DNA from: Bacteroidales bacterium
GTDB lineage: Bacteria; Bacteroidota; Bacteroidia; Bacteroidales; Bacteroidaceae
Direction of reading: 5' to 3'
DNA length: 42,329 nt
NCBI GenBank assembly: GCA_030531335.1
Contig: JAUNNV010000001.1
Span: forward strand, 1-42,329
In this document: one piece after another, positions 29,428 through 37,920 of the stretch
How the letters are laid out: the number at the start of each line of letters is the position of its first letter
Numbering within the stretch: position 1 is the stretch's first letter
Notes under the pieces: model-generated
The model's input: only the letters and a program-made list of their open reading frames with translations
Database searches by the model: none
Told to the model about the DNA's origin: nothing
Program-made: the position numbers and the translations under genes

Positions 29428-29470
29428 GATGGGTAGATTTTGGTTACATATAGGAAAACGCGTTATTTTG

Positions 29471-29501
29471 TTTACTTGTAAAAACATTTTTATTATATTT
29501 G
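29471..29501 (+). promoter_or_regulatory. Promoter upstream of the XRE-ImmA/cas genes
   Basis: TTTA at 29471-29474, 19 nt, then TATATTTG at 29494-29501, an exact -7 match with a one-mismatch -33. It leaves a short leader before the ATG at 29528. No good promoter is seen between the regulator gene and cas9, so this site may drive the whole cas unit. Confidence 0.6.
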
Positions 29502-29527
29502 TAAACTCATAATAAATCGATATTACC

Positions 29528-30646
29528 ATGCAAACAGACAGTCAATCCCCAGAATTTGCCCGGCTAAGCTCACCCGAAAGGAAAATAGACCCACAAAGAA
29601 TAAAACTGGCGCGTAGGCTGTGCCACTACTCTATGGATGAACTCTGCCGACGAATGGGGGAGGATGCCGTCAGTAAGATGGCAATCTCGAAGATAGAGCG
29701 TGGTATCTTCACCCCATCTCCCAACGTCCTAAAAGCTATGGCCAAAGCCTGCGGAGTGCCGCTCGGCTACTTTTACCGACAAGACATCCACATCGGCCAA
29801 ATGGACTTCCGTTTCTCAGAAAGCATCTCGAAGCGCAAGTCCGAGGAGATACGCGCACAGGTGACGGCGGCCATCATAGACTACGCCATCACCAACTCGT
29901 GCGTGCCGTCCACCAACGAGTTTTTTGCTCCGATGGCACGGACTACCCTACGTACCTACGCCGATGTCGAGGTGGCAGCAAGCCGGCTTCGCCGCAAATG
30001 GTGCATAGGCCTACAGCCGATATTCTCCGTGTATGAATTGTTGCAAAACCATGGCATCCACATTATAGAGCTCGAAATAGATGACTTGAATGTTGACGGC
30101 ATAGCAACGACCATCAATTCCTCGCTGCCCGTGATTGTGGTGAACACCCTGAAGCACACCACCACCGAACGCAAGCGGTTCACGGCACTTCACGAACTCG
30201 CCCATCTGCTGTTTCGCCTGTGCCCGTTGTCGGCTGCCGAACATGAAGAATATGTTGGCGCATTACCTCCGTTGCCCTACAGGGTTTCGCTGAAACATGC
30301 CGACATCGAGCGCCTTTGTAACTTCTTTGCCAACGCCATGCTGTTGCCAAGCCAGGCCGTTGTACGCCGTATAGGTCAGTCGCGATTCGAGTTGGACATG
30401 AGGGAACTCGTCGGTGTCCGCGAGATGTATGGCATCAGCATAGCCGCTATCGTCCACCGCCTCCACGACATGCGCATCATCCCCGACACCCTTTACCACT
30501 ATTTTTTCGAGCACATCATCAGTCCCAACCTTATGGAGGTCGGCTGGGGCACTTTCCCCATCATGGAACATGCCGACATGCCGATGTTGTTGAAGATAAG
30601 GATAGAAAAAGAAAACTCCCCGTTAAAGGACGAGGAGCAGACCTAA
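29528..30646 (+). CDS. XRE-family regulator fused to ImmA/IrrE metallopeptidase-like domain
   Basis: A 372-aa protein in two parts. Residues ~20-75 form a helix-turn-helix domain (KLARRLCHYSMDELCRRMG ... MAISKIERGIFTPSPNVLKAM). Residues ~160-300 form an ImmA/IrrE-type zinc protease domain with HELAH at 222-226 and a likely third ligand in IERLCNFFANAMLLP (Glu ~261). Such proteins typically bind an operator and/or cleave a repressor in response to stress, phage or mobile elements. All expected metal ligands are present, so it is probably active. It lies directly upstream of cas9 in the same direction with no terminator on that strand between them. Whether it regulates the CRISPR system, is itself a defence or stress gene, or is only adjacent cannot be settled here. 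Confidence 0.8.
   Translation: MQTDSQSPEFARLSSPERKIDPQRIKLARRLCHYSMDELCRRMGEDAVSKMAISKIERGIFTPSPNVLKAMAKACGVPLGYFYRQDIHIGQMDFRFSESISKRKSEEIRAQVTAAIIDYAITNSCVPSTNEFFAPMARTTLRTYADVEVAASRLRRKWCIGLQPIFSVYELLQNHGIHIIELEIDDLNVDGIATTINSSLPVIVVNTLKHTTTERKRFTALHELAHLLFRLCPLSAAEHEEYVGALPPLPYRVSLKHADIERLCNFFANAMLLPSQAVVRRIGQSRFELDMRELVGVREMYGISIAAIVHRLHDMRIIPDTLYHYFFEHIISPNLMEVGWGTFPIMEHADMPMLLKIRIEKENSPLKDEEQT
30602..30637 (-). terminator. Intrinsic terminator of the tracrRNA
   Basis: On the - strand: ctcctcgt, a six-base loop, acggggag (30637-30616), then ttttctttttct. Eight pairs including one G-U, with a good U tract. It overlaps the 3' end of the ImmA-type coding sequence on the other strand. Confidence 0.85.
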
Positions 30647-30694
30647 ATGTTTTCACAACGGAATAATCCTTATTGTGAATAGCTACAAATTCGT
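30602..30694 (-). ncRNA. tracrRNA
   Basis: Read on the - strand. Positions 30694-30672 (acgaatttgtagctattcac then aat) are complementary to the first ~24 nt of the crRNA-sense repeat (GTTGTGAATAGCTTACAAAA...), with one bulge, one mismatch and a terminal G-U. It continues with aaggattattccgttgtg, a segment typical of Bacteroidetes tracrRNAs as I recall them, and ends in a terminator hairpin. A consensus promoter lies just upstream (30729-30699). Predicted length is about 93 nt; the exact 5' end is uncertain by several bases. It would pair with pre-crRNA for processing and load into Cas9. It is antisense to the last 45 nt of the ImmA-type gene and to the leader of cas9. Confidence 0.88.
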
Positions 30695-30698
30695 GATG

Positions 30699-30729
30699 CA
30701 AAAGTATGAATATAATCTCAACCAACAAA
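30699..30729 (-). promoter_or_regulatory. tracrRNA promoter
   Basis: On the - strand: TTTG (30729-30726), exactly 19 nt, TACTTTTG (30706-30699). This is a perfect Bacteroidetes vegetative promoter, with the same boxes and spacing as the rpsL promoter. Transcription should begin within a few bases of 30694. The -33 box is about 17 nt from the cas9 start codon on the opposite strand, so polymerase loading here could interfere with cas9 expression. Confidence 0.85.
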
Positions 30730-30745
30730 ATAAATTCGAAAGAAA

Positions 30746-33700
30746 ATGAAAAGAATTTTAGGATTAGACCTTGGCACCACCAGTATCGGGTGGGCATTGG
30801 TCAATGAAGCGGAAAACAAGGAAGAATGTTCTTCCATTATTAAATTAGGTGTAAGGGTCGTTCCACTTACTGTTGATGAACAGGGCAACTACGAAAAAGG
30901 GAAAAGCATAACTACCAATGCCGACAGAAATCTAAAGCATGGAATGCGAATCAATCTCCAGCGTTACAAATTGCGTCGTGCAAAACTCGTTCAGTGCCTA
31001 AAACAGAATGGCATCATAACAGACGATTCCGTTTTGTGTGAATCAGGCAACTCAACTACTTTTCAGACGTATCAACTGAGGGCGAAGTGCGCGACAGAAA
31101 GAATCGAACTCAACGACTTTGCCCGCGTTCTTCTAATGATCAACAAGAAGCGTGGCTACAAAAGTTCCCGCAAAGCCATGTCTGCTGAGGATGGGCAGAT
31201 TATCGACAGCATGGATGTAGCCAAGATCCTTTACGAAAATAATCTCACTCCAGGCCAATATGTTTATCAATTGCTTCGTGATGGAAAGAAGTGCGTTCCT
31301 GACTTTTACCGTTCTGACTTGAATACAGAGCTTGAACGTATTTGGACATTCCAAAAGCGATTCCATGCGGGCATACTTACTGACGACTTCCGTGAGCAAA
31401 TATCGGGTAAGACGAAAGCCAACACATCAAAGATTTTCCATGGCAAATATGGCATTTTCACCGCAGAGAACAAAGGAAGTGAAAAGCGTATCCAATCATA
31501 CCGTTGGCGTGCAGATGCTTTGCAGAAAGAACTTTCACAAAGTGAACTCGCCTACGTTATAGCCGACTTGAATGGAGCCATAAACAATTCAAGCGGTTAT
31601 CTCGGAGCAATCAGCGACCGCAGCAAGGAACTTTTATTCAACAAACTTACCGTTGGTCAGTATCTGATGAAGCAAATAGAAGAAAATCCCAACAAAAGCC
31701 TAAAGAACAAGCCTTTCTACCGCCAAGATTACCTCGACGAGTTTGAGAAAATATGGCAGTGCCAGGCTTCTTTCCATCCAGAACTGACACCCGAATTAAA
31801 GAAAGAAATACGCGACATTGTCATCTTCTATCAGCGTCCGCTGAAAAGCAAGAAGGCAATGCTCGACACTTGTGAATTTGAGAACCGAACCGTATCGTAC
31901 GAAATAGAAGGACGGCAGAAGACAAAGACTGTCGGGCTGAAAGTCTGTCCGAAGGCATCTTTCCTGTTCCAAGAGTTCAAGGTTTGGCAGATACTCAACA
32001 ATATTGTGGTGAGAAATGAGGAGGGCAAACGGCCATTGTTGCAGAATGAGAAAGAATTGCTTTTCAAGGAGCTAACCCTACACGAGAAACTTTCAAAAGC
32101 CGACACCTTGCGACTTCTGTTCAAGCAGCTGAAAGGTTTTGACCTCAATTACATAGAGCTTGAAGGAAACCAATCCATGGCAGCTATCATGCGTGCTTGT
32201 GTCAACATCGTGGCCATGACCGGACATGAGGAACTTGACTACGACAAGACCCTTGCCACAGACATTTACCCTGTTGTCACGGATGTTTTCAAGTCATTGG
32301 GTTTCGCAACCGATTTTCTTTCCTTCGATGCGAGCCTCCAAGGCAAGGATTTTTACACCCAACCTGCATACCGCCTTTGGCATTTGCTCTATTCTTATGA
32401 AGGCGACAAATCCAAGTCGGGCACAGAAAGTCTTGTGCGGAAAATATCAGAACTGACGGGGATGGACAAGGAGTATGCCCAAGTATTGGCCAATGTCACT
32501 TTCGCCGATGACTATGGCAGTCTTAGCGCGAAGGCCATTCGCAACATACTTCCTTTCATGAAGCAAGGGCTGGAGTACAGCATGGCGTGTGAAGAAGCTG
32601 GTTATCGTCACTCGAAGGCATCGCTCACCAAAGAGGAATTGGACAACAAGGTTCTTGTTGACCATATCAGCCTTCTTCCTCGGAACAGTTTGCGTAATCC
32701 TGTCGTGGAGAAGATTATCAATCAAATGGTCAATGTTGTCAACTCCATAGCGGAAACATACGGCAGACCCGACGAAATACGTATTGAGCTTGCACGCGAA
32801 CTGAAGAAAAACGCGCAAGAACGCGAGCAACTTTCGAAAAGCATTAATGTGGCAAAGGAAAATGCAGACAAATACACAGAGATACTAAAGAAGGAATTCG
32901 GACTGCCATACGTCAGCCACAACGACATTGTCAGGTATCGTCTTTATCTCGAATTGGAGCCCAACGGATTCCACACGCTCTATACCAACACATTCATACC
33001 AAAGGAGAAACTGTTTAGCAAGGAGTTCGACATCGAGCACATCATCCCTCAGGCGAGGCTTTTTGACGATTCCTTTTCGAACAAGACCCTTGAAGCACGC
33101 GATGCCAACATTGAGAAAGGCAACTCCACGGCTTACGACTATGTGGTTGCAAAGTGTGGAGAATCTGGCGCAGAGGAGTATAAGAAAAAGATTGATACGA
33201 TGCTTAAGGATGGAGTGATTACGAAATCGAAGCACGACAAACTGCTCATGAAGGAAGCCGATATTCCGGAAGGCTTTATCGAGCGCGACCTCCGCAACTC
33301 GCAGTATATCGCACGCAAGTCGCGCGAGATTCTGGAACAAATGGTGCGCACCGTCGTACCTACCGTTGGTTCCATCACCGAACGCTTACGCGAGGACTGG
33401 CAGCTTGTCGATGTAATGCAGGAGTTGAATTGGAACAAGTACGATGCTCTCGGCATGACGGAGCGCCGTACCGACAAGGATGGGCGCGAAATCAGGAGCA
33501 TTAAGGACTGGACGAAGCGCAACGACCATCGTCATCATGCCATGGATGCCCTTACCATTGCATTCACCACACCAAGCATCGTGCAGTATCTCAACAACCT
33601 AAATGCCCGCAGCGACAAATCGAGTAGCATTTATGCCATAGAGAAAACTTGTCTGGAGCGCGACAAGAGAGGACACCTTCGCTTCATTCCTCCTATGCCT

Positions 33701-34873
33701 ATCAACACTTTCCGTGCTGAGGCAAAGCGTCATCTGGAATCGGTCATCGTGTCGGTCAAGTCAAAGACAAAGGTAGTGACGCGCAATGTCAACAAAACGA
33801 AATGCAAGAGTGGTTACAACAAGAAAGTGCAACTCACTCCGCGTGGTTCGCTCCATAATGAAACCATTTATGGCAGCATACATCAGTATGCCACCCACGA
33901 AGTCAAGGTTGGGGCTTCATTGACAGCCGATCTTATAGCCCTTGTGTCGAAGAAGGCCTATCGCGAAGCCCTTGCCCAACGCTTGGAGCAGTTTGGAGGC
34001 AATCCTAAGAAAGCGTTCACTGGCAAGAACTCGCTTGAGAAGAATCCTATCTATCTCAACGAATCCCACACCGAAACGGTTCCTCCTAAAGTCAAGCTTA
34101 CCGAGCAAGTCACACTATACCCCATTCGCAAGGCTATCGACAAAGACTTGAAGGTCGAAAAAGTTATCGACGTTGGTGTTCGCCGCATCCTTCAGCAACG
34201 TCTCGACAAATTTGGCGGTGATGCCAAAAAAGCCTTTGTCAACCTCGATGAGAATCCAATTTGGCTTAACAAGGAAGCTGGCATCAGCATAAGGCGGGTC
34301 ACCATCACAGGCATTGCCAATGCTACAGCGCTTCGCACCAAGAAAGATCGGTTTGGTCGCGAAATACTCGACGGGGAAGGAAAAACTCAGCCTGTTGATT
34401 TTGTCAATACAGGCAACAACCATCATCTTGCTGTGTTTATGGATGCCGATGGGAAATATCAAGAGCACATCGTGTCGTTCTACGAAGCTACGGCACGCGC
34501 TTCCATGAATCTGCCAATCATCGACCGTCGGTATCGCAGCGAAGACGGATGGAGGTTTCTCTTCTCGCTCAAACAGAATGAATATGTGGTTTTTCCAAAT
34601 CCAGAAACAGGCTTCGACCCACACGAAATCGATCTTCTCAATCCCGACAACTACAGCGTCATCAGCCCGAATCTGTTTCGTGTGCAGAGCTTCTCGACAA
34701 GAGATTATTGGTTCCGGCATCATCTTGAAACCATGTTGGTGGATGACATTACATTAAAGGATACAACATGGAAAAGAATACGTACCGTTGATGGATTGTC
34801 TGGTTTGGTAAAGGTGCGTGTCAACCATATCGGCCAAATTGTTTCGGTCAACGATAACGAGCGTCAATCATGA
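30746..34873 (+). CDS. cas9: CRISPR-associated endonuclease Cas9, type II-C
   Basis: 1375 aa, an RNA-guided nuclease that cuts both strands of target DNA. All catalytic parts are present: RuvC-I ILGLDLGTTSIGW (Asp8), Arg-rich bridge helix RINLQRYKLRRAKLVQ (~72-87), RuvC-II IRIELAREL (Glu681), HNH DIEHIIPQ (His765) with a following SNKTL, and RuvC-III HRHHAMDA (His931, Asp934). It should be active. The locus has cas9-cas1-cas2 only, with no csn2 or cas4, hence II-C. It is long for II-C but in the range of Bacteroidetes members. The C-terminal third holds an internal repeat (about 1073-1105 and 1146-1175: QRLEQFGG..KKAF / QRLDKFGG..KKAF). Its stop overlaps the cas1 start by 4 nt. The leader upstream carries the antisense tracrRNA. 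Confidence 0.96.
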   Translation: MKRILGLDLGTTSIGWALVNEAENKEECSSIIKLGVRVVPLTVDEQGNYEKGKSITTNADRNLKHGMRINLQRYKLRRAKLVQCLKQNGIITDDSVLCESGNSTTFQTYQLRAKCATERIELNDFARVLLMINKKRGYKSSRKAMSAEDGQIIDSMDVAKILYENNLTPGQYVYQLLRDGKKCVPDFYRSDLNTELERIWTFQKRFHAGILTDDFREQISGKTKANTSKIFHGKYGIFTAENKGSEKRIQSYRWRADALQKELSQSELAYVIADLNGAINNSSGYLGAISDRSKELLFNKLTVGQYLMKQIEENPNKSLKNKPFYRQDYLDEFEKIWQCQASFHPELTPELKKEIRDIVIFYQRPLKSKKAMLDTCEFENRTVSYEIEGRQKTKTVGLKVCPKASFLFQEFKVWQILNNIVVRNEEGKRPLLQNEKELLFKELTLHEKLSKADTLRLLFKQLKGFDLNYIELEGNQSMAAIMRACVNIVAMTGHEELDYDKTLATDIYPVVTDVFKSLGFATDFLSFDASLQGKDFYTQPAYRLWHLLYSYEGDKSKSGTESLVRKISELTGMDKEYAQVLANVTFADDYGSLSAKAIRNILPFMKQGLEYSMACEEAGYRHSKASLTKEELDNKVLVDHISLLPRNSLRNPVVEKIINQMVNVVNSIAETYGRPDEIRIELARELKKNAQEREQLSKSINVAKENADKYTEILKKEFGLPYVSHNDIVRYRLYLELEPNGFHTLYTNTFIPKEKLFSKEFDIEHIIPQARLFDDSFSNKTLEARDANIEKGNSTAYDYVVAKCGESGAEEYKKKIDTMLKDGVITKSKHDKLLMKEADIPEGFIERDLRNSQYIARKSREILEQMVRTVVPTVGSITERLREDWQLVDVMQELNWNKYDALGMTERRTDKDGREIRSIKDWTKRNDHRHHAMDALTIAFTTPSIVQYLNNLNARSDKSSSIYAIEKTCLERDKRGHLRFIPPMPINTFRAEAKRHLESVIVSVKSKTKVVTRNVNKTKCKSGYNKKVQLTPRGSLHNETIYGSIHQYATHEVKVGASLTADLIALVSKKAYREALAQRLEQFGGNPKKAFTGKNSLEKNPIYLNESHTETVPPKVKLTEQVTLYPIRKAIDKDLKVEKVIDVGVRRILQQRLDKFGGDAKKAFVNLDENPIWLNKEAGISIRRVTITGIANATALRTKKDRFGREILDGEGKTQPVDFVNTGNNHHLAVFMDADGKYQEHIVSFYEATARASMNLPIIDRRYRSEDGWRFLFSLKQNEYVVFPNPETGFDPHEIDLLNPDNYSVISPNLFRVQSFSTRDYWFRHHLETMLVDDITLKDTTWKRIRTVDGLSGLVKVRVNHIGQIVSVNDNERQS

Positions 34874-35808
34874 TAAAGAAAACCCTTTATTTCGGAAACT
34901 CTGCCTACCTGAGTATGCGTTTGCAACAACTGGTGGTGCAGATTCCCGAAATGCAAAACTCCGGTGACTTCTCTCCCGAGCAGAAGAAAGCTTACGAACG
35001 AACCACCCCCATCGAGGATATTGGTGTGGTGATTCTCGACAACCGTCGCATCACCATCACCAGTGGAGCCATGTCGGCTTTGTTGGCGAACAATGTGGCT
35101 GTCGTTACCTGCGACGAGCACAGCATGCCCAACGGACTGCTCATGCCGCTTGAGTGCAACACACTCCAACATGAGCGGTTCCTTTCCCAAACATCTGCAT
35201 CGCTGCCTCTGCGCAAGCAACTCTGGGCGCAAACCGTCAGGCAGAAGATACTCAATCAGGAGCATGTGCTTCGCACCAATGTGCCAAGTGTGGAAACCAA
35301 TTGCATGAAAGTCTGGGCCGCCAATGTGCGTAGTGGCGACCCTGACAACCTGGAAGCGCGTGCCGCTGCTTACTATTGGAGAAACCTGTTTCCCGACGTC
35401 CCAGATTTCACTCGCAACCGTGAGGGCGTGTCGCCAAACAATCTGCTCAACTATGGCTATGCCATACTTCGTGCGGTCGTTGCCCGCAGCCTTGTGGCAA
35501 GCGGACTTTTGCCCACTCTTGGCATACATCACCACAACCGCTACAACGCCTATTGTCTTGCCGACGACATCATGGAGCCTTATCGCCCATACGTTGATAT
35601 GCTGGTAATCAAGGTGCACCATGAAATGGGCGACACCGACTGCCTCTCGCGGGACTTGAAGGCACAGATGCTACAGATTCCCACTCTCGATGTTGTTGTG
35701 GATGGCAAGCGCAGTCCGCTCATGGTTGCGGCTGGCATTACTGCTGCCTCGCTTGCAAAATGTTATAAAGGAGAGGCTCGATTGGTCTCATATCCTGTAA
35801 TGTCATGA
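34870..35808 (+). CDS. cas1: CRISPR adaptation integrase Cas1
   Basis: 312 aa. With Cas2 it integrates new spacers at the array end. The N-terminal beta domain ([29 protein letters not shown]) and C-terminal helical domain are both present. Metal-binding candidates are Glu162 in [12 protein letters not shown], His in GIHHHNRYN (about 221) and the acidic [11 protein letters not shown]. Length and motifs are typical for type II. It overlaps cas9 and cas2 by 4 nt each (ATGA), implying coupled translation. Confidence 0.95.
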
Positions 35809-36149
35809 TAGCCGACCTCAGTCGTTATAGCGAGTATCGTGTCATGTGGATTCTGGTGTTCTTCGACTTGCCTACCGAAACAAAGAAAGACCGCAAAATA
35901 TATCAGGAATTCCGCAAGAACCTGATGCGCGACGGATTCACCATGTTTCAGTTTTCCATCTATCTGCGCCATTGCGCCAGCCGCGAAAACATGGCTGTCC
36001 ACATAAAGAGAGTGCATGAATGGCTTCCCGAATATGGCAAGGTCGGCATACTTACCATCACCGACAAACAATTTGGCGACATGGAAATATTCTATGGCAG
36101 AAAGGCGAAGATTGAAAAACACGTGCCAATACAGCTTGAACTTTTCTAA
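35805..36149 (+). CDS. cas2: CRISPR adaptation protein Cas2
   Basis: 114 aa, the dimeric scaffold of the Cas1-Cas2 integration complex. The ferredoxin-like core starts [21 protein letters not shown], with the conserved Asp after the first strand. It ends with a beta-strand tail (VPIQLELF) that docks on Cas1. Last gene of the cas unit; a long hairpin follows 19 nt later. Confidence 0.94.
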
Positions 36150-36168: not shown

Positions 36169-36198
36169 AGAAATCCCACTCCAAGGAGTGGGATTTCT
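36169..36198. terminator. Long hairpin between cas2 and the CRISPR array
   Basis: agaaatcccactcc (36169-36182) and ggagtgggatttct (36185-36198) are perfect complements; the tip of the stem must open to form a loop. The T run on the + strand is about 15 nt downstream, so it is not a textbook terminator. Its symmetry suits a shared stop for the convergent cas and array transcripts. Confidence 0.65.
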
Positions 36199-36273
36199 CT
36201 TGTTCACAAACAATTTTTTTTATTGTGAATCATCCTTATATCCAGTTAACAATCAATACTCTATACGTATTGT
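36199..36273. other. Cas-proximal flank of the array with repeat-like fragments
   Basis: ttcacaaacaat (36203-36214) and ttattgtgaat (36220-36230) resemble the two ends of the crRNA-sense repeat, but on the + strand, opposite in orientation to the array. Together they form a dyad (TTCACAA/TTGTGAA). The second fragment is also identical to 11 bases at the tracrRNA anti-repeat (30670-30680). It may be the remnant of an inverted repeat or of a second anti-repeat. The rest is A/T-rich. Confidence 0.4.
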
Positions 36274-37859
36274 ATTGTTTGTGATACATTCTCAATACGA
36301 TTTTGTAAGCTATTCACAACGATGGTGTCCTTTGGGTTCATGTAATACAATTGTTTGTGATACATTCTCAATACGATTTTGTAAGCTATTCACAACAGCC
36401 TTAAATCGAGCGTCGAAAAAGGCGAGCATTGTTTGTGATACATTCTCAATACGATTTTGTAAGCTATTCACAACATAGACGAAAACGGAGAAACCGATGA
36501 ACGAATTGTTTGTGATACATTCTCAATACGATTTTGTAAGCTATTCACAACTACCCTGCGAATATCCACTTTCAGGAACCAATTGTTTGTGATACATTCT
36601 CAATACGATTTTGTAAGCTATTCACAACGCCTTTAGCGGTTATCAAACGGCAGGTACTATTGTTTGTGATACATTCTCAATACGATTTTGTAAGCTATTC
36701 ACAACCTGGAACGTACTATTTCCACAATTCTACAAATTGTTTGTGATACATTCTCAATACGATTTTGTAAGCTATTCACAACTGCAGTTGCAGGACATGT
36801 ATAATCGCAGTTAATTGTTTGTGATACATTCTCAATACGATTTTGTAAGCTATTCACAACGCCTGCCTCTGTCTTGCTCCAGCTCCAGAGATTGTTTGTG
36901 ATACATTCTCAATACGATTTTGTAAGCTATTCACAACAATACCGTAATCGGTCGTTCGATTGCTGAAATTGTTTGTGATACATTCTCAATACGATTTTGT
37001 AAGCTATTCACAACTATCTTGTTATTTCGACAATAGTACCTGAATTGTTTGTGATACATTCTCAATACGATTTTGTAAGCTATTCACAACTAATTCCGCG
37101 GCCTGTTCTGCATTGATAGCATTGTTTGTGATACATTCTCAATACGATTTTGTAAGCTATTCACAACTTTACTTGACTAAATATATGGCAGTGGATAATT
37201 GTTTGTGATACATTCTCAATACGATTTTGTAAGCTATTCACAACATGAATGTTCCTCTTTCTTCGTCTGGTGTATTGTTTGTGATACATTCTCAATACGA
37301 TTTTGTAAGCTATTCACAACAAAAGGTAATTGATGACCTTGTTAGTCGTGATTGTTTGTGATACATTCTCAATACGATTTTGTAAGCTATTCACAACTCG
37401 CAACGACTATTAAAAATGCCAGAAAAAATTGTTTGTGATACATTCTCAATACGATTTTGTAAGCTATTCACAACCGGCGTGTACCTCGTTCTCACAACTG
37501 TCGTATTGTTTGTGATACATTCTCAATACGATTTTGTAAGCTATTCACAACAGTGCCATAATTAATTATTCTCTTGATTATATTGTTTGTGATACATTCT
37601 CAATACGATTTTGTAAGCTATTCACAACTCCGTTCGATTTTTGAATTTGAGCGAGTGAATTGTTTGTGATACATTCTCAATACGATTTTGTAAGCTATTC
37701 ACAACTGCAGCTGCAGGACATGTATAATCGCAATTATTGTTTGTGATACATTCTCAATACGATTTTGTAAGCTATTCACAACTCGCCGTAAATTTATTGA
37801 TTATTGTCACGAATTGTTTGTGATACATTCTCAATACGATTTTGTAAGCTATTCACAAC
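36274..37859 (-). CRISPR. Type II-C CRISPR array: 21 repeats, 20 spacers
   Basis: Twenty-one copies of a 47-bp repeat, read as identical. In crRNA sense (- strand) the repeat begins GTTGTGAATAGCTTACAAAA and ends TATCACAAACAAT. First copy 36274-36320, last 37813-37859; none is degenerate. Spacers are 29-31 nt, mostly 30. Orientation follows from tracrRNA complementarity to the repeat end starting GTTGTGA, and from a promoter at the right end. Spacers at 36783-36813 and 37706-37735 are near-identical (28 of the first 30 bases). The repeat has no TAnnTTTG box, so crRNAs probably come from one long precursor here, processed with tracrRNA and a host RNase III. On this reading the right end is leader-proximal, holding the newest spacers. 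Confidence 0.97.
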
Positions 37860-37920
37860 AGAACCACCAAAGGTAAAACTCACTCCAATCGTGCCAATTC
37901 TTTTTTTGATTTGTTACAAA
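37860..37920 (-). promoter_or_regulatory. CRISPR leader and array promoter
   Basis: On the - strand: ATTG (37898-37895), 19 nt, TACCTTTG (37875-37868), an exact -7 box with a one-mismatch -33. Transcription would begin at about the first repeat, giving almost no 5' leader RNA. The 61-bp gap also contains a T tract and a palindrome ATTTGT-T-ACAAAT (37909-37921) touching the stop of the next gene. Leaders usually direct Cas1-Cas2 integration, so this gap is the likely adaptation site. Confidence 0.6.

Follow-up and report, generated by a model that had tools for sequence, protein, structure and literature searches.

The window, that is, the whole 42,329-nt stretch analyzed here (positions 1–42,329 of contig JAUNNV010000001.1, assembly GCA_030531335.1), comes from a Bacteroidales bacterium of the Bacteroidaceae. 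On the plus strand, a gene for a putative regulator with HTH_3 and Peptidase_M78 domains (HTH-ImmA, 29528–30646) is followed by cas9 (30746–34873; 1375 aa; Pfam RuvC_III and HNH_4, TIGR01865) and by cas1 (34870–35808) and cas2 (35805–36149), both assigned with Pfam. The order cas9-cas1-cas2, with neither csn2 nor cas4 before the array (Pfam and ORF map), is that of type II-C. The interval between cas2 and the array contains a perfect hairpin (36170–36203; AGAAATCCCACTCC/GGAGTGGGATTTCT), likely a bidirectional terminator for the convergent units. At the cas-proximal end of the array (36206–36235), short repeat-like pieces occur in inverted order (CACAAACAAT and ATTGTGAATCATCC).

The CRISPR array (36274–37859, crRNA on the minus strand) comprises 21 repeats (47 nt each) and 20 spacers (29–31 nt). 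Promoters within repeats have been proposed for Flavobacterium (PMC8092290, PMC10309648), and the box TAnnTTTG is complete in 62 of 69 Bacteroidota II-C repeats. The repeat of the window is without this box (TATTGAGA); instead, a candidate promoter, TACCTTTG with an upstream TTG-type −33 element, lies just upstream of the first repeat (37867–37897, minus strand). Across 24 arrays in which the terminal repeat is decayed, identity is 0.74 in the handle half, 0.97 in the box and 0.98 in the tail, the handle being the more decayed half in 22 arrays and the less decayed in 2. Since the decay spares box and tail, promoters inside repeats are supported.

The tracrRNA gene of the window

The minus strand between HTH-ImmA and cas9 contains a predicted tracrRNA gene of about 90 nt (30604–30695) with an anti-repeat, an invariant nexus and a terminator. 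The promoter (30699–30729), identified by direct reading, has the form TTTG-19-TACTTTTG, with TTTG at 30729–30726, a 19-nt spacer and TACTTTTG at 30706–30699; most homologous promoters show TAnnTTTG. The expected start is near 30695 and the 3′ end near 30604. The anti-repeat (30673–30694; plus-strand sequence TTGTGAATAGCTACAAATTCGT) pairs with nucleotides 2–24 of the repeat. The complementarity to the repeat end pointed out in the initial annotation is thus real, with one bulge and one mismatch within it. The computed crRNA:tracrRNA duplex has −25.2 kcal/mol versus −7.7 ± 2.3 kcal/mol for shuffled handles. The repeat handle reaches a score of 34 here, and 100 Markov-shuffled windows give at most 27. 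Because both values exceed those of the shuffles, chance is ruled out for the site. The nexus, AATAAGGATTATTCCGTTGTGAAAAC, recurs in a near-identical version in other loci.

The intrinsic terminator (30604–30638) is formed by a stem of 9 pairs (30638–30615) followed by TTTTCTTTTTC, and it sits in the final codons of HTH-ImmA, whose nearest relatives stop several residues sooner. The last ~42 nt of the tracrRNA overlap the HTH-ImmA stop region, an overlap already noted in the initial annotation. The promoter had been placed there in the cas9 leader; it is present, in the 99-nt gap between HTH-ImmA and cas9, a gap not proven to be a leader. A search of the window against Rfam gave no match. As in type II-C tracrRNAs, the anti-repeat stands outside the array, with its own promoter and terminator. 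The reading of the minus strand at ~30604–30729 as a complete type II-C tracrRNA gene, antisense to cas9, is confirmed at the level of sequence and shuffle tests.

In S. pyogenes, the tracrRNA gene divergently adjoins cas9, as in the window. The S. pyogenes tracrRNA locus takes part in cas control through tracr-L, for which a long tracrRNA carrying a Pcas-directed guide is required (PMC11417352). By the same scheme, a 5′-extended tracrRNA would act here as a natural single guide with which Cas9 represses the cas promoter. Neither a second upstream promoter nor a 5′ guide matching the cas promoter was found. On the minus strand, no further promoter box occurs as far as 31400; the sequence upstream of the anti-repeat contains nothing resembling a repeat, and matches to the regulator promoter do not exceed 10 nt. 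This form of autoregulation was rejected and is hardly credible for the window.

Antisense orientation and the start of the cas9 message

For comparison, 102 distinct cas9 loci related to that of the window were assembled, many of them fragments of metagenome-assembled genomes, with genes called as simple ORFs. A tracrRNA, searched up to 300 nt upstream of cas9, was found in 93 of them. Rows L026 and L130 of alignment A2 were left out. It is antisense to cas9 in 91 of the 93 (L055 included) and in sense orientation in the other two, L048 and L069. An intact TAnnTTTG (6/6) is present in 83 of the 93 tracrRNA promoters, with 3.0 expected. The anti-repeat is upstream of cas9 also in the Bacteroidota type II-C systems of Prevotella intermedia (PMC5608340) and Riemerella anatipestifer (PMC5006608), and for P. 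intermedia the tracrRNA was already predicted opposite to the cas operon (PMC5608340). In that report the tracrRNA promoter was not predictable, whereas the window has an explicit promoter and a terminator inside the upstream coding sequence. The antisense layout, the conservation of which in related II-C loci was a question left by the initial annotation, is therefore kept, and it is real but ordinary.

The gene upstream of cas9 runs in the same direction in 46 loci and in the opposite direction in 38. The upstream neighbors are mostly unrelated among the Cas9 loci, so that a conserved upstream partner gene at all of them was rejected. In two loci (L091 and L100), another regulator-like gene (WYL-like by eye) upstream of cas9 also ends within the antisense tracrRNA. 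Decayed second copies of tracrRNA parts are seen upstream of the intact tracrRNA gene in three others (L104, L059 and L061).

In 55 of 89 loci (4.4 expected), the stretch from the tracrRNA promoter to cas9 includes a plus-strand TAnnTTTG, most often 30–40 nt ahead of the start codon. With the box at this place, the cas9 mRNA would start outside the tracrRNA gene and lack its complement. Loci with a short gap (40–70 nt) have the cas9 box in 0 of 12 cases. In the window (gap, 73 nt), no plus-strand TAnnTTTG occurs within 330 nt of the cas9 start, and the interval from HTH-ImmA to cas9 shows no plus-strand terminator. On these two grounds, read-through would be the simplest source of the cas9 mRNA, and read-through from the HTH-ImmA promoter is plausible from the sequence. 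The initial annotation had the geometry right: a plus transcript from HTH-ImmA into cas9 would hold the entire tracrRNA complement, and the full duplex has a computed −169 kcal/mol. The built-in balance between Cas9 and tracrRNA proposed there finds no support as a general property, since most relatives have their own cas9 box downstream from the tracrRNA gene. Read-through as a general design was rejected for the same reason; it characterizes individual loci, probably including the window, and is not conserved as a design.

Plain divergent transcription would also account for the arrangement, with tracrRNA and cas9 independent, cas9 served by a weak non-consensus promoter in the 99-nt gap, and the overlap with HTH-ImmA an accident of the position of the CRISPR locus. 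The back-to-back promoters of most relatives, an antisense layout that is near-universal whatever the upstream gene, and the nearly random direction of that gene agree with it; the gap of the window without TAnnTTTG and the recurrence of the upstream gene's clade at CRISPR-Cas operons (below) do not. We consider it possible, if somewhat unlikely.

A putative regulator clade adjoining several CRISPR-Cas types

The HTH-ImmA protein (372 aa) has an intact HExxH motif, with conserved H222-E223-H226 and E261. Its best PADLOC matches are the models of RmrA, the antitoxin of RosmerTA systems (PMC10440598), and the capP and capH models match more weakly. RmrA and the ImmA-domain antitoxins (PMC10440598; COG2856-Xre, PMC2701414) join HTH and M78 protease in one protein and have an inverted-repeat operator, as here. 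HTH-ImmA thus combines the HTH and the M78 domain with HExxH that mark RosmerTA; an adjacent RmrT toxin gene is absent from the window, where the next gene is cas9. In contrast to RosmerTA, a CRISPR-Cas operon occupies the toxin position, and the protein belongs to a clade separate from relatives with PIN-like genes.

Within the collection gathered by Cas9 similarity (110 loci), this regulator is found in the window only and in none of the other 109. A search with HTH-ImmA itself yielded a clade of 17 sequences (support 100/99) holding cas-linked proteins; the identity of HTH-ImmA to its closest relatives is only 48–55%. In the window and in L170, L189 and L190, cas9 lies downstream, directly or one gene later. 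The next gene is cas12a in six members (L161, L165, L167, L171, L183 and L186), with the regulator 2–58 nt upstream. At four type I loci the regulator is directly upstream of I-C cas3 (L166, L181 and L182) or I-B cas6 (L172). The contig of L191 ends after an HNH gene, the same one that lies ahead of cas9 in L189, and in the sister pair L162 and L163 the visible sequence shows no cas genes. Outside the clade, the flanks read for the 34 homologs contain none; many of these homologs are followed by a gene of 165–180 aa that is PIN-like on the basis of sequence motifs and one weak Pfam match. One cas12a of the clade (L167:7224–10978) is split into two ORFs by a stop or frameshift.

Three further clade members, from two genera, were held out as a test. 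Of these, L256 stands first in a type I-C operon, and L255 heads a DdmD-like helicase gene. In L254, the regulator gene is divergent from a cas9 of the window type, and the locus occupies the site downstream of rplQ that is also used in the window; L254:7055–10913 is thus a second CRISPR locus of the window type at this site. In L255:5673–12533, the clade member heads a gene for 665 aa besides the helicase gene. Overall, 16 of 20 clade members adjoin CRISPR-Cas (I-B, I-C, II-C and V-A) versus 0 of 34 homologs outside, with ~0.01 expected on a rough gene-count estimate, so that the linkage recurs beyond chance. On the tree, effector types are intermixed: cas12a as a label requires six changes, and the sisters L166 and L167 are type I-C and cas12a, respectively. 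The regulator therefore seems to move among CRISPR types. Its presence is optional, as 6 of 24 genomes in the cas12a survey carry it. None of the 21 homologs in a class-wide survey, the window and G033 aside, is near cas genes, so that the linkage has not so far been seen beyond the family of the window. No earlier report of it was found in the open-licence literature searched. Judged from sequence, the recurrence of this clade at the head of several CRISPR-Cas types is a larger finding than the antisense layout.

BRO-N or HNH genes are present between HTH-ImmA and the effector, or within the operon, in L190, L170, L182 and L189. Such genes between HTH-ImmA and cas9 in some loci, distant relatives in phages and the PIN-like genes next to the more distant homologs would fit a phage-derived or Aca-like (anti-CRISPR-associated) repressor, or a stray antitoxin, that came to lie beside cas by passive gain. 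Such an origin is quite improbable: in types I, II and V the regulator is on the strand of the effector and at an operon-like distance from it, the linkage persists while the effector type changes along the tree, and the phage matches have only ~31% identity or less.

A putative autoregulatory operator, the inverted repeat GTTTAC-25-GTAAAC (29470–29506, plus strand), straddles the HTH-ImmA promoter TATATTTG (29494–29501). The search for inverted repeats sequence by sequence was too weak alone, and a test anchored at the −7 box took its place. Of the 17 clade members, 11 have an exact six-base inverted repeat there (0.01 expected), with covarying arms (GTTTAC, GTTGAC and GGTTAC). The exact match is absent from this test in L171, L172, L181, L182, L189 and L191; the repeat of L189 lies downstream from the box. 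The same repeat occurs in 11 of the 34 non-CRISPR relatives outside the clade and thus supports autoregulation as a family trait, not control of CRISPR as such. HTH-ImmA probably represses its own promoter via the GTTTAC/GTAAAC repeat.

Proposed control of the cas9 operon

With a probability of roughly 0.6, the locus would be a regulator-led HTH-ImmA-cas9-cas1-cas2 operon, the message of which crosses an independently transcribed tracrRNA gene. The sequence elements, how well they are conserved and the linkage of the regulator to CRISPR-Cas operons are observed; repression, induction, read-through and any RNA pairing are inferred. HTH-ImmA, similar to the RosmerTA antitoxin/repressor, would repress its own promoter through the inverted repeat. 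Since cas9 is here without its own consensus promoter (lost or never had), the HTH-ImmA promoter probably yields an HTH-ImmA-cas9-cas1-cas2 message, which would traverse the tracrRNA gene antisense. The tracrRNA would come from its own strong promoter and the crRNA from the array, and under repression there would be much tracrRNA and little Cas9. In CapH-CapP, an HTH repressor and an M78-like protease control CBASS. By analogy with CapH-CapP and with ImmA/IrrE, inactivation of the regulator by some trigger would increase the amount of cas message. The same two functions head a defense operon in both cases, and the capP and capH models match HTH-ImmA weakly; CapH-CapP has two genes and CBASS, whereas the window has one fused protein and CRISPR-Cas. 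CvkR, a MerR-type repressor of type V-K CAST that also lowers tracr-CRISPR RNA (PMC9938897), is likewise a dedicated repressor encoded beside a class 2 effector, with a palindromic motif, but it belongs to an unrelated protein family and a different system.

The regulator-led operon is favored by the anatomy and conservation of the tracrRNA together with the lack of a nearby consensus cas9 promoter or plus-strand terminator, and by the single 100/99 clade with homologs heading cas12a, cas3 and cas6 operons. The operator repeat at the regulator promoter and the held-out clade members fit it as well. Further support comes from L189, L190 and L170, where, as in the window, the tracrRNA is antisense between the regulator's operon and cas9, in several Cas9 subfamilies. 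L189, like the window, has no plus-strand box. In L190, the sole plus-strand box is upstream of the tracrRNA 3′ end, and a cas9 mRNA started there would include the tracrRNA complement in full. The plus-strand box of L170 lies beside cas9. Because cas9 keeps its own box near the start codon in L170 and L254, regulator linkage does not always mean read-through, and this counts against the regulator-led reading, as do the divergent regulator of L254, the window as the sole carrier among the 110 Cas9-similarity loci, the operator repeat in non-CRISPR relatives and the 48–55% identity of the window protein to its closest relatives.

The initial annotation went further, in that cas message and tracrRNA could pair and limit each other; by pairing or collision, this would set a Cas9:guide ratio. 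This would add to the regulator-led operon and does not exclude it. The full complementarity of the read-through message, the similar geometry of L189 and L190 and the boxless gaps of the 12 shortest-gap loci are consistent with such a limit. We regard it as unlikely, given a geometry not conserved in most relatives and a structured, protein-bound tracrRNA that may not pair.

Put forward tentatively, and with more doubt than confidence, the HTH-ImmA clade may be an exchangeable, protease-equipped switch for guided defenses (I-B, I-C, II-C, V-A and DdmD-type); in Cas9 operons, the induced message would cross the antisense tracrRNA, coupling Cas9 induction to tracrRNA availability. Little is known of how gut Bacteroidales keep CRISPR-Cas silent and turn it on, and one regulator clade at four subtypes offers a testable common switch, possibly tied to DNA damage or phage entry, in line with ImmA/IrrE proteins elsewhere. 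With its antisense tracrRNA, the Cas9 case is well suited to a clear-cut test for interference between effector mRNA and guide RNA.
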